Assembly: GCF_013111185.1 (NCBI RefSeq)
Contig: NZ_WVRE01000004.1
Location: 248,001 to 312,000 of the forward strand
Direction of reading: 5' to 3'
Length of the DNA stretch: 64,000 bases
Source of the DNA: Ruegeria sp. HKCCD7303
GTDB lineage: Bacteria > Pseudomonadota > Alphaproteobacteria > Rhodobacterales > Rhodobacteraceae
Position 1 is the first letter of the stretch, and every line of letters starts with the position of its first letter. Positions 59,804 through 64,000 of this stretch are shown here, piece by piece. Below the pieces are notes generated by a model. It did not search any database and was not told the origin of the DNA. It saw nothing but the letters and a program-made list of their open reading frames with translations. A program made the translations under genes and the position numbers.

Positions 59804-61246
59804 ATGATCCAGGCTGATCTGACAACTATCCTGCCGGAAATCATTCTGGCGCTTTATGCGATGGCGGCGCTGCTGGGGGCTGTCTACACGACGAAAGACG
59901 GCATGGCACCTTTGCTGGTCTGGACCACGGCCGGTTTGATGGCCCTTCTGGCGATTTGGATTGCCACCCAGGGTGAAGGCACCAATGTGGCGTTCAACGG
60001 TATGTTCGTCGATGATGGGTTCGCCCGCTTTGCAAAAGTTTCCATTCTGCTTTCGGCAGGTGCCGTACTGGTCATGAGCCAGGAATACATGGCGCGCCGC
60101 GATCTGCTGCGTTTTGAGTATCCGCTGCTGGTTGCACTTGCCGCCGTTGGCATGATGATGATGGTCAGCGCGGGCGATCTGATGTCGCTGTATATGGGGC
60201 TCGAGCTGCAATCGCTATCGCTTTATGTAGTTGCTGCACTGCGTCGTGACAGCGCCAAGTCGACCGAAGCGGGTCTGAAGTATTTCGTGCTGGGTGCGCT
60301 CAGCTCAGGCTTGCTGCTTTATGGTGCGTCGCTGGTTTATGGCTTCACCGGAACCACGCTCTTTTCGGGCATCATCACGACCGTTCAGGCCGGAGACGTT
60401 TCGATTGGTCTGCTATTTGGTCTGATCTTCCTGATCTCAGGACTCGCTTTCAAAGTCTCGGCCGTGCCGTTCCACATGTGGACACCGGACGTGTACGAAG
60501 GCTCGCCCACGCCGATTACTGCCTTCTTCGCGACCGCGCCGAAAGTGGCTGCCATGGCCCTTTTTGCCCGGCTGATGCATGACGCGTTCGGAGGCATTGT
60601 GAAAGATTGGCAGCAGGTGATCGTTCTGCTTTCGGCGCTGTCGATGTTGCTGGGTGCTGTCGCCGCGATTGGCCAGCGCGACATCAAACGTCTGATGGCA
60701 TTCTCGTCAATTGCCCATATGGGCTATGCGCTGATCGGTCTTGCTGCAGGTACTGAGTTGGGCATCAAAGCGATGCTGATGTATCTGGCCATATACGTGA
60801 CCATGAACATCGGAACCTTTGCCTTCATCCTGATGATGGAACGTGACGGAAAACCGATAACCGATATTGACGCATTGCGCCAGTATTCCAAGCGCGATCC
60901 GGGCAAGGCCCTTGCCGTTTTGATCCTGATGTTCTCGCTGGCCGGTGTGCCGCCGATGCTGGGCTTTTTTGCCAAGTTTGGGGTGTGGCAAGCGGGTGTA
61001 AGCGCAGGGTTGACCGGCCTTGTGATCGTCTCGGCCATCGCGTCCGTCATTGGTGCGTTCTACTACCTGCGGATCGTGTTCTACATGTATTTCGGGGCTG
61101 AAAACGAAGAGCCAATCGAGACCCGATCGACGCCCGTTCTGTGGGTGGCTTTGATGGGATCTGCGGCGTTGATGCTGGTCGGCATCTTCTATCAGTTCGG
61201 TGTCGAGGGCGCAGCAGCAGCTGCTGCGGCGACGCTTGTCAACTGA
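59804..61246 (+). CDS. nuoN: NADH-quinone oxidoreductase subunit N
   Basis: 480 residues; AAGGGAG lies before ATG 59804. The third antiporter-like subunit: [20 protein letters not shown], then [20 protein letters not shown] and [20 protein letters not shown]. Last complex I gene. The transcript appears to end at the palindrome 25 bp downstream. Confidence 0.97.
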
Positions 61247-61270
61247 ACGTCTTGAACATTCGAAAGGAGG

Positions 61271-61297
61271 GGCTCGGTCACGTGACCGAGCCTTTTT
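61271..61297 (+). terminator. Palindromic terminator of nuo operon, placed inside birA leader
   Basis: GGCTCGGTCA followed by CGTGACCGAGCC (61271-61292) is a perfect 22-bp palindrome; TTTTT follows (61293-61297), so it has the form of an intrinsic terminator with a minimal loop. AAAGGAGG (61263-61270) directly precedes it and the birA ATG (61301) directly follows TTTTTGAT. If the hairpin folds, the ribosome site ends up 8 bases from the start codon. Confidence 0.85.
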
Positions 61298-61300
61298 GAT

Positions 61301-62050
61301 ATGAGTAAATGGCCCCAAGGCTACGGTCTGCACGAGGTGCAGGAAGTCGATAGCACCCTGAACGAGGCGGCGCGGATCGCGCCCAATGCCCGTGGTCCTG
61401 TCTGGATCATGGCACATCATCAGACAGCAGCCCGCGGACGGCGTGGACGGGCCTGGGCTAATCCTATGGGCAATCTGGCCGCGACGTTGCTGATGCGTCC
61501 GCAAGGCGCGCCGGAACAGGCGGCATTGCGCAGTTTTGTGGCCGCGCTGGCCCTGTTCGACGCCTGTGTCGCCGTAACCGGAAGAACGGCCGGGCTGTCG
61601 CTGAAGTGGCCCAATGATGTCCTGCTGAATGGCGGTAAGCTTGCCGGTATCTTGCTGGAAAGCACCGGGCAGGGGCACGGTGTGGCGCATCTGGCGATCG
61701 GTATCGGGGTAAACCTGGCCAATGCACCGGATGCGGATGCGGTCGAACCTGGTGCGATGCGGCCTGTTTCACTGCTGTCAGAAACCGGGACGCACGTCTC
61801 GCCAGAGGATTTTCTGACCGAGCTTGCAGGCGCCTTTGCCACTTACGAAACCCAATTTACCACTTATGGGTTCGAACCGATCCGTACTGCTTGGTTGGCC
61901 CGCGCGGCCCGGTTGGGAGAGGTTATCACCGCACGTACCGGAACGTCAGAGACGGTAGGAACATTCGAAACAGTGGACGCAAGCGGCAACCTTGTCTTAA
62001 ACACCGCCAAGGGCCGCGTGAGCATTCCCGCGGCAGACGTGTATTTCTGA
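61301..62050 (+). CDS. birA: Biotin-[acetyl-CoA-carboxylase] ligase, without DNA-binding domain
   Basis: 249 residues, a group I enzyme lacking the N-terminal helix-turn-helix, so a ligase but not a repressor. HEVQEVDSTLNEA begins the catalytic domain; ARGRRGRAW (R45-W52) is the biotinyl-AMP loop; K102 in LKWPNDVLL is the catalytic lysine; LAIGIGVNLAN follows. A small C-terminal SH3-like domain ends at VSIPAADVYF. It biotinylates carrier domains such as K607 of MccA here. The only nearby Shine-Dalgarno sequence lies on the far side of the nuo terminator hairpin. Confidence 0.95.
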   Translation: MSKWPQGYGLHEVQEVDSTLNEAARIAPNARGPVWIMAHHQTAARGRRGRAWANPMGNLAATLLMRPQGAPEQAALRSFVAALALFDACVAVTGRTAGLSLKWPNDVLLNGGKLAGILLESTGQGHGVAHLAIGIGVNLANAPDADAVEPGAMRPVSLLSETGTHVSPEDFLTELAGAFATYETQFTTYGFEPIRTAWLARAARLGEVITARTGTSETVGTFETVDASGNLVLNTAKGRVSIPAADVYF

Positions 62051-62062
62051 AAGGGGCGTTAA

Positions 62063-62842
62063 ATGCTTCTGGCCATTGATTGCGGCAACACCAACACCGT
62101 TTTCTCGATCTGGGACGGCGAGAAGTTTCTGTGCACCCTGCGCACGTCGACCCACCATGCGCGTACGGCGGATGCATATTTCACATGGTATTCGACGCTG
62201 GTGAAACACTATGGCATTGAGGCGGTCATAACGGATGTCATCATCGCCTCGACTGTGCCGCGTGTGGTGTTCAATCTGCGCATTTTTGCGGATCGCTTCT
62301 TTGGGTGCCGCCCGCTGGTGGTTGGCAAGCCTGACTGTCTGTTACCTGTGCCCCCTCGTGTGGATGAGGGAACCGTACCCGGGCCTGACCGGCTGGCCAA
62401 TGCAGTGGGCGCGTTTGACCGGCACGGCGGAAACGTGGTCGTGGTGGATTTTGGCACTGCAACGAACTTTGATGTGGTTGCAGCCGATGGGGCCTATGTC
62501 GGGGGAATTATTGCGCCCGGTGTGAACCTGAGCCTTGAAGCTCTGCATCAAGGGGCGGCCGCGCTTCCGCATATCGACATTACCCGACCGGATAAAGTGA
62601 TCGGGACGAATACGGTTGGATGTATCCAATCTGGCGTGTATTGGGGCTATTCCGGCCTGATCGAAGGCCTGATCGCCCGGATCAAAAACGAATACGGAAT
62701 GCCGATGAAAGTTGTCGGAACAGGAGGGCTAGCCCCTTTGTTCGATCAGGCCGACGTAGGGTTTGACGCAATCGAAGATGATCTGACGATGCACGGATTG
62801 ACCGTGATCCATCGCTATAACAAGGATAATAGCTCCGCATGA
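62063..62842 (+). CDS. coaX: Type III pantothenate kinase
   Basis: 259 residues; AAAGGGG before ATG 62063. First step of coenzyme A synthesis. The ASKHA nucleotide-binding fold shows MLLAIDCGNTNTVFSIW with D6, GPDRLANAVGAF for pantothenate, and VVVVDFGTATNFDVV. The type III family replaces CoaA and is insensitive to CoA feedback. 12 bp after birA; ATGA overlap with rnj, so translationally coupled. Confidence 0.96.
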   Translation: MLLAIDCGNTNTVFSIWDGEKFLCTLRTSTHHARTADAYFTWYSTLVKHYGIEAVITDVIIASTVPRVVFNLRIFADRFFGCRPLVVGKPDCLLPVPPRVDEGTVPGPDRLANAVGAFDRHGGNVVVVDFGTATNFDVVAADGAYVGGIIAPGVNLSLEALHQGAAALPHIDITRPDKVIGTNTVGCIQSGVYWGYSGLIEGLIARIKNEYGMPMKVVGTGGLAPLFDQADVGFDAIEDDLTMHGLTVIHRYNKDNSSA

Positions 62843-64000
62843 GCAGTGAAAGATTGATCTACCTGCCGCTGGGTGGCGCGGGTGAAATTGGCATGAATGC
62901 CTATGTGTACGGTTATGGTAAACCGGGACAGGAGCGCCTGATCCTTGTCGATCTGGGCGTCACCTTTCCGGACATGGACACAACACCCGGTGTTGACCTG
63001 ATTTATGCAGATATTTCTTGGTTGAAAGAGCGTGCGGATCAGCTGGACGGCGTCTTTATCACTCACGCGCATGAGGACCATGTTGGCGCGGTGGCGCATT
63101 GCTATGAAGCCTTGGGTGCCCCGATTTATGCCCGCGCGTTCACGGCCAACATTGCACGCCGCAAGATGGAAGAACACGCGCACCCAACCGAGGCGGTGAC
63201 GACCGTATCTGCCTGGCCTGAACAGGTCTCGGTTGGTCCTTTCACAATTGGGTTTCTGCCTGTATCGCACTCGATCCCTGAAAGCGCGGCTTTGGTCATC
63301 GACACGCCTGCAGGACGAGTGGTGCATTCCGGTGACTTCAAGCTGGACGAGAATCCGGTCGTGGGCGAGGCTTTCGACCCAGACCTTTGGACCGAAGTGG
63401 CCAAACCCGGTGTCAAAGCCCTGATCTGCGACAGTACAAACGTGTTTTCGGCCCATCCCGGCCGTTCGGAATCCGAAGTTGGGCCGGAAATCACCAAACT
63501 GGTTGAAAACGCCGAAGGCATGGTCGTGGCGACCACGTTTGCCTCAAATGTTGCGCGGGTCAAAACACTGGCCGAAGCGGGTCAGCGGGCAGGGCGATCG
63601 GTTGTTCTGTTGGGCCGCGCCATGCGCCGGATGATCGAGGCCGCAACCGAAACTGGCATCCTGTCGGATTTCCCAAAGGTGATCAGCGCGGAAGAGGCGT
63701 TGGATCTTCCGCGTCAGAATCTGATGCTGATCGTAACCGGCAGCCAAGGCGAGCGCCGTGCCGCCAGCGCCCAGCTGGCCCGTGGTAAATACCGAGGTCT
63801 GGAACTGGCCGAGGGCGACCTGTTTCTGTTTTCTTCTAAAACCATTCCGGGCAATGAGCGGGGCGTGATCTTCATCATGAACCAGCTCAGCGAAAAGGGC
63901 GTGGATGTGGTGGATGACAGCTCGGGTCTTTATCACGTGTCAGGCCACGCCAACCGGCCTGATCTTGAGAAGGTCCATGCGCTGATTGACCCGCAGGTCA
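62839..64000 (+). CDS. rnj: Ribonuclease J (cut by window edge)
   Basis: The first 387 residues of a family of about 555. ATG 62839 overlaps the coaX stop. A metallo-beta-lactamase/beta-CASP RNase: YLPLGGAGEIGMNAYVYGYG, then the zinc motif HAHEDH at 76-81, VSHSIPESAALVIDTPAG, HSGDFKLDENP and, in the beta-CASP part, VVATTFASNVARVK, LIVTGSQGERRAA and YHVSGHANRPDL. It has endonuclease and 5' exonuclease activity in RNA turnover in related organisms. No stop within the window. Confidence 0.95.
   Translation, partial: MSSERLIYLPLGGAGEIGMNAYVYGYGKPGQERLILVDLGVTFPDMDTTPGVDLIYADISWLKERADQLDGVFITHAHEDHVGAVAHCYEALGAPIYARAFTANIARRKMEEHAHPTEAVTTVSAWPEQVSVGPFTIGFLPVSHSIPESAALVIDTPAGRVVHSGDFKLDENPVVGEAFDPDLWTEVAKPGVKALICDSTNVFSAHPGRSESEVGPEITKLVENAEGMVVATTFASNVARVKTLAEAGQRAGRSVVLLGRAMRRMIEAATETGILSDFPKVISAEEALDLPRQNLMLIVTGSQGERRAASAQLARGKYRGLELAEGDLFLFSSKTIPGNERGVIFIMNQLSEKGVDVVDDSSGLYHVSGHANRPDLEKVHALIDPQV

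Follow-up and report, generated by a model that had tools for sequence, protein, structure and literature searches.

A conserved terminator hairpin as a candidate folded spacer of a split birA ribosome-binding site in Ruegeria

We find that the presumed terminator hairpin at the nuoN–birA junction of Ruegeria lies between a Shine–Dalgarno (SD)-like sequence and the birA start codon, and we propose hairpin-bridged initiation, in which this hairpin forms the folded spacer of a split birA ribosome-binding site, a reading to which we give a little better than an even chance. The initial annotation had suggested such an arrangement from one genome, and aligning the junction across relatives bore out its anatomy: the SD-like foot, the hairpin and the 8-nt spacing are kept in Ruegeria, with compensatory changes in the stem. 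Under this mechanism, most RNA polymerases would stop at the T5 tract that follows the hairpin. In the RNA of those that read through, the 22-nt hairpin would stay folded and bring the foot SD from 30 to 8 nt of the ATG, and a 30S subunit would then pair with the foot SD, displace the weak G·U and A–U pairs between the foot and the U-tract, and start at the ATG. More tentatively, and with somewhat more doubt than belief, we consider that the one hairpin may do two jobs, ending nuo transcription and then bridging the birA ribosome site, where it would be indispensable, with the U-tract forming a weak lid over the SD.

The features of the junction are collected in Table 1, with coordinates in the window, by which we mean the whole 64,000-nt stretch of DNA that was analysed, G000:C18:248001-312000 of a Ruegeria genome. 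The nuoN stop codon occupies 61244–61246 and the birA start codon is an ATG at 61301, leaving 54 nt between the end of nuoN (61246) and birA; the positions first assigned to the SD-like site, the palindrome, the 8-nt tail and the ATG were correct base for base. In DNA, 61271–61292 reads GGCTCGGTCAC/GTGACCGAGCC, a perfect 11+11 palindrome (22 bp) for which the chance expectation in the window is about 64000/4^11 = 0.015. The 22-bp palindrome initially described is thus real as DNA, but the RNA stem comprises 9 bp closed by a 4-nt loop, not 11 bp. Between the palindrome and the birA ATG, TTTTTGAT spans 61293–61300, and its T5 tract would open the 8-nt spacer of the folded read-through RNA.

Table 1. 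Features of the nuoN–birA junction and neighbouring genes in the window
Feature	Coordinates	Strand	Details
nuoN, last gene of the nuo operon	59804–61246	+	NCBIfam NF004440, 687 bits
Linker, nuoN stop to SD-like foot	61247–61262	+	
SD-like foot of the hairpin, AAAGGAGG	61263–61270	+	Anti-SD energy −12.4 kcal/mol
Terminator hairpin, 9-bp stem GGCTCGGTC/GACCGAGCC, loop ACGT	61271–61292	+	
T5 tract of the terminator	61293–61297	+	Predicted pairing partner of the SD-like foot
birA, biotin--[acetyl-CoA-carboxylase] ligase, 249 aa	61301–62050	+	NCBIfam TIGR00121
coaX, type III pantothenate kinase	62063–62842	+	NCBIfam
Start of a presumed RNase J-type gene	62839–63999	+	Overlaps the coaX stop (ATGA)

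The element has the form of an intrinsic terminator, a GC-rich stem-loop with a U-run directly after it, and the fold of 61245–61330 has a z-score of −3.07, with 1 of 200 shuffles folding as well. A simple terminator scan of the window did not list this hairpin, probably because G–T pairs extend its stem into the T-run; between 48000 and 64000, the same flaw could hide further terminators whose foot is G-rich. An Rfam search of 60900–61500 returned no family at gathering score, the best being sX14 with 24.9 of 80 bits.

The birA product scores 124.5 bits against TIGR00121 (cut-off 83.1), and bifunctional repressor models match it only from about position 78 onward. The position of its start codon does not shift among the aligned genus rows; the codon is ATG, or GTG in L016. 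The gap from birA to coaX is 12 nt, and birA, coaX and the following gene, which we take to be RNase J-type, look like one transcript, which must pass the hairpin or start nearby. A transcription start of birA's own, at or after the palindrome, would give a leaderless mRNA for which the SD is irrelevant. Leaderless mRNAs exist in alphaproteobacteria, but between 53251 and 64000 a crude promoter scan found nothing sigma-70-like on the + strand, we know of no familiar −10 box that the T5 tract and the 3 nt before the ATG resemble, and the G-rich foot would go unexplained; we consider this reading very improbable. A leader peptide after the SD (GTG-ACC-GAG-CCT-TTT-TGA) was also rejected, as it requires a GTG in the loop that is unconserved.

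The hairpin is a property of the genus. We compared 54 Ruegeria genomes, in all of which birA was found and the junction read, and applied a fixed rule that allowed no mismatches and up to three G·U pairs; a terminator hairpin upstream of birA was present in 49 of the 54, with a spacing to the start codon of 8 nt in all of these but one, which has 9 nt. Judged from these alignments, such conservation excludes a chance origin of the hairpin. An imperfect hairpin is retained in L026 and L128, and it has been lost in the other three genomes (L009, L130 and L131). Covariation in the stem was assessed in 52 of the 54 rows (L130 and L131 left out): 96.8% of 468 cells are paired, four of the nine pairs have changed on both sides, and none of 500 shuffles scored as high on any of five measures. 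The stem tolerates a U·G pair in 41 of the 52 rows and the loop is near-random across the genus (mean identity 0.29, 51 rows), making a DNA operator for a dimeric protein unlikely.

The linker between the nuoN stop and the foot is nearly saturated with changes (mean pairwise identity 0.33, 51 rows), and its length is almost fixed. Among the 49 hairpin-bearing genomes, 43 have 24 nt and 5 have 23 nt between the nuoN stop and the stem, the remaining value, 29, coming from L113, where the script picked a shorter stem. This constancy could mean that indels have been rare, or that the hairpin must lie at a set distance from a terminating ribosome. Of the same 49, 45 have 54 nt and 4 have 53 nt from nuoN stop to birA start, and it is this regularity, despite the saturated linker, that speaks for coupled re-initiation, in which a 30S subunit from the nuoN stop would be caught by the foot SD and reach birA along a path shortened by the hairpin. 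Yet 54 nt is a long distance for translational coupling, L131 has 36 nt and no hairpin, and the junction varies widely in other genera, and we regard coupling as improbable. The four 53-nt cases also break an in-frame continuation of nuoN into birA, for which 54 nt would supply 18 codons.

The end of nuoN itself (61235–61246) reads CTT GTY AAY TRA in 53 of the 54 genus genomes. The Leu codon of this terminal region is CTT in 54 of 54, when only 12 of the 67 Leu codons of the window nuoN are CTT, a pattern that may reflect synonymous constraint; CTTGTC recurs at the nuoN end in many other genera, with CTG in some. No −10 box was seen at a fitting distance from this motif, and a promoter with TTGTCA at the nuoN end was discarded when the alignment, read by eye, held no conserved −10 at 16–18 nt.

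The foot of the birA hairpin differs from that of other terminators in the genus. Controls came from 864 kb of sequence in five Ruegeria genomes, made up of the window, a further 400 kb of G000 and 400 kb from four other genomes; 772 genes were called there and 55 strong terminators found outside genes, 50 of them with no called start within 60 nt. Positions −1 and −2 of the birA foot are G in 80% and 88%, respectively, of the 49 hairpin-bearing genus genomes, whereas in the 50 control rows they are A in 70% and 74% and G in 16% and 10%. Sixteen of these control rows are both strands of eight two-way terminators, whose foot is inherently an A-tract; when they are set aside, the remaining 34 rows have A in 56% and 62% and G in 24% and 15% at −1 and −2, respectively. 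Anti-SD energies, calculated over 10 flank and 2 stem bases against ACCUCCUUU, of −6 kcal/mol or lower were found for 42 of 49 birA feet versus 1 of 50 controls (1 of 34 without the two-way terminators), with medians of −8.8 and −2.55 kcal/mol (−2.4 for the 34), and the formal p-value of 4e-16 is not to be taken literally, the birA rows being orthologues and not independent. At −12.4 kcal/mol, the window foot is stronger than any control (strongest, −10.2). One further terminator, L199, stands 4 nt from a called start and has an A-rich foot (+2.2), although that start call is doubtful.

The 16S rRNA of the genus ends in CCTCCTTT: in G043 the SSU match stops on the last base of this motif, and G000 has the motif too, without a match in the SSU search. 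The ordinary SD of coaX, which reads AAAGGGG, AGAGGGG, AAGGGGG or AAGGAGG in most of 30 genus loci (median anti-SD energy −7.8 kcal/mol), shares its motif family with the birA foot, which suggests that the genus uses such SD sequences. An A should be at least as good a partner for U as a G, so the switch from A to G in the foot is explained by complementarity to 16S rRNA and not by the U-tract. Selection for ribosome binding at the foot of the birA terminator is likely.

In linear RNA from the window, the foot SD lies 30 nt from the ATG with no strong SD nearer. Anti-SD energy at −20 to −4 of birA has a median of −2.5 and a minimum of −5.8 kcal/mol over the 54 genomes and is −5 kcal/mol or lower in only 7 of them, which supports the original view to the extent that the linear RNA has no strong SD. 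With the hairpin skipped, a strong SD is separated from the birA ATG by 8 nt, and the hairpin that would provide this functional spacing is predicted to be stable, with a median stem probability of 1.00. The idea that the folded spacing is ideal did not hold as first put: the 8 nt are kept in the genus, but folding predicts that the GGAGG of the foot pairs with the UUUUU of the spacer, with a probability of about 0.96 and an extra −4.0 kcal/mol in the window and a median probability of 0.83 in the computed ensembles of 49 genomes.

This predicted pairing admits the reading that folding masks the ribosome site, the U-tract acting through G·U and A–U pairs as a lid on the SD that keeps birA low. 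The extended helix is favoured by just the 4.0 kcal/mol and the probabilities given above, but pairing of the SD with the anti-SD, at −12.4 kcal/mol in the window, exceeds the 4.0 kcal/mol gained from the U-tract, and A would presumably make a better lid than G; we see a slim chance of this being the main role. For hairpin-bridged initiation, the same calculated energies indicate that a ribosome could pay for displacing the U-tract out of SD pairing, with the folded state partly masked.

The hairpin could instead be a terminator or attenuator only, with birA starting SD-free and the G-rich foot being either a purine-tract variant that pairs with the U-tract, as the folding predicts, or a leftover. 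L009, L130 and L131, which lack the hairpin, also have no strong SD (linear −4.3, −3.3 and −1.7 kcal/mol, respectively) and keep an intact birA frame, and an SD is therefore apparently dispensable for birA in these 3 of 54 genomes. Furthermore, GGAG, GAGG or AGGA occurs near the start of 44% of 395 called genes in the G000 sample versus 6% of 2000 random places, figures that are rough given start calls from a simple codon-bias caller, and SD-poor starts are therefore common. Both observations make the initial assertion that birA is translated 'only' when folded too strong. Against a terminator-only role stand the control feet, which are mostly A-rich and SD-like in just 1 of 50 or 1 of 34 rows, and the adjacent linker, nearly saturated at an identity of 0.33, beside which a mere leftover should have decayed. 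We hold this reading to be unlikely, albeit the one among the alternatives that we take most seriously.

In a structured scan of 702 sampled gene starts, only birA had the SD–hairpin–start architecture, and a genome-wide device was rejected on this basis. Shuffled sequences gave 0.9 matches on average under a lax 6-bp stem rule, and a hairpin of any kind occurred at 16 of the 702 starts versus 17.9 in shuffles. The architecture alone therefore proves little, and it is conservation that makes the case convincing. A pattern search in G000 gave 54 matches versus 34 for the reversed pattern.

Known systems share parts of this arrangement. Like intrinsic terminators and in-operon attenuators, the birA hairpin has a GC-rich 9-bp stem, a 4-nt loop and a T5 tract and stands at the end of the nuo operon; unlike them, it has a G-rich, SD-like foot where controls mostly have A, and it abuts the next start codon. 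In E. coli thrS, the SD itself adjoins the AUG, a difference from birA. The likeness is that the thrS ribosome tolerates a folded hairpin inside the binding region; a further difference is that ribosomes bind thrS only with the help of unpaired RNA upstream of the hairpin (PMC3936740). For phage T4 genes 38 and 25, a review describes a hairpin that cuts the SD–AUG distance from 22 to 5 and from 27 to 11 nt, respectively, and reports that destabilising the hairpin of such split initiation regions lowers initiation (Nivinskas 1999; Malys and Nivinskas 2009; via PMC3014915). The T4 genes resemble birA in that an over-distant SD is brought near the AUG by a hairpin (30 to 8 nt for birA) and that the arrangement is conserved among close relatives. 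By contrast, the birA hairpin is of terminator form with a U-tract, belongs to a bacterial housekeeping operon and has a U-tract capable of pairing with the SD. The T4 hairpins have been tested for function, whereas that of birA is a predicted bridge.

Within the literature found, hairpin-bridged SD–AUG spacers are described for those two phage T4 genes (PMC3014915), and the matches listed from the open-licence PubMed Central literature contained no report of the nuoN–birA junction or of a terminator as an SD–AUG spacer. A chromosomal case conserved across a genus, with a bridge of terminator form, would show that transcription stop signals can form part of translation start signals, and start-site and SD predictors that use linear spacing would miss such sites. 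Were the two-job reading true, one RNA element would set both read-through into birA and its translation, as well as read-through into coaX and the next gene. The junctions with the bridge, with a separate SD and with neither offer a natural series for tests of the folded spacer.

Beyond the genus, we read the junction in the 60 genomes of the family that scored best among 248 searched. Of these, 47 were scorable; 13 of the 47 have a scored hairpin, as do 19 of the 55 named loci (L056–L110). With duplicates (L056/L205, L057/L208 and L068/L215) counted once, all nine distinct junctions outside the genus set whose hairpin abuts the start (7–10 nt) have a foot of −6 kcal/mol or lower, several of the nine being close relatives and not independent events. 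Where 22 nt or more part the hairpin from the start codon, an interval that usually has its own SD, only 4 of 20 junctions have such a foot, all of them Leisingera (L066, L067, L069 and L070). The association between an abutting hairpin and an SD-like foot, as read from these junctions, is thus strong but not perfect. The feet of these four, out of eight junctions in the Leisingera group (L063–L070), have energies of −10.2 to −10.5 kcal/mol despite an SD of their own downstream, which indicates that an SD-like foot can exist where there is no apparent need for it, a point in favour of the terminator-only reading.

A FastTree tree of 40 taxa, built from birA and nuoN pieces, places the abutting state in a Ruegeria-like group, which separates from Leisingera and all other taxa with local support of 0.907. 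The state occurs once elsewhere, in L283 (identical to L226; G162), which falls among those other taxa (local support 0.955) at an exact position that is weakly supported (0.584). This junction has AAGGAGG at the hairpin foot and 8 nt to the ATG, and is apparently a second, separate origin in a distant genus. The relatives with a separated hairpin suggest that the abutting state was made by loss of the spacer and its SD. On the tree, the proposed bridged arrangement probably arose when the spacer and the separate SD, kept downstream of the hairpin in Leisingera and other relatives, were lost, the purine-rich foot being left to serve as SD. If the two-job reading is right, most of the Ruegeria clade has retained the element, and L226/L283, in another genus, acquired it independently.

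Two minor observations arose from these comparisons. An element like CCTCCGGCGGGAGTATTTTTG..AAGATG precedes birA in several other genera (L071, L106 and L264), with variations, and CCTCCGGCGGGAGTATTTTTG-like elements occur elsewhere in the same genome (G000:C12:9429-9470 and G000:C1:1003920-1003957). A record titled Nocardioides marinus DP1N28-1 (L068/L275) has a Leisingera-type junction and groups with Leisingera, and is probably mislabelled.
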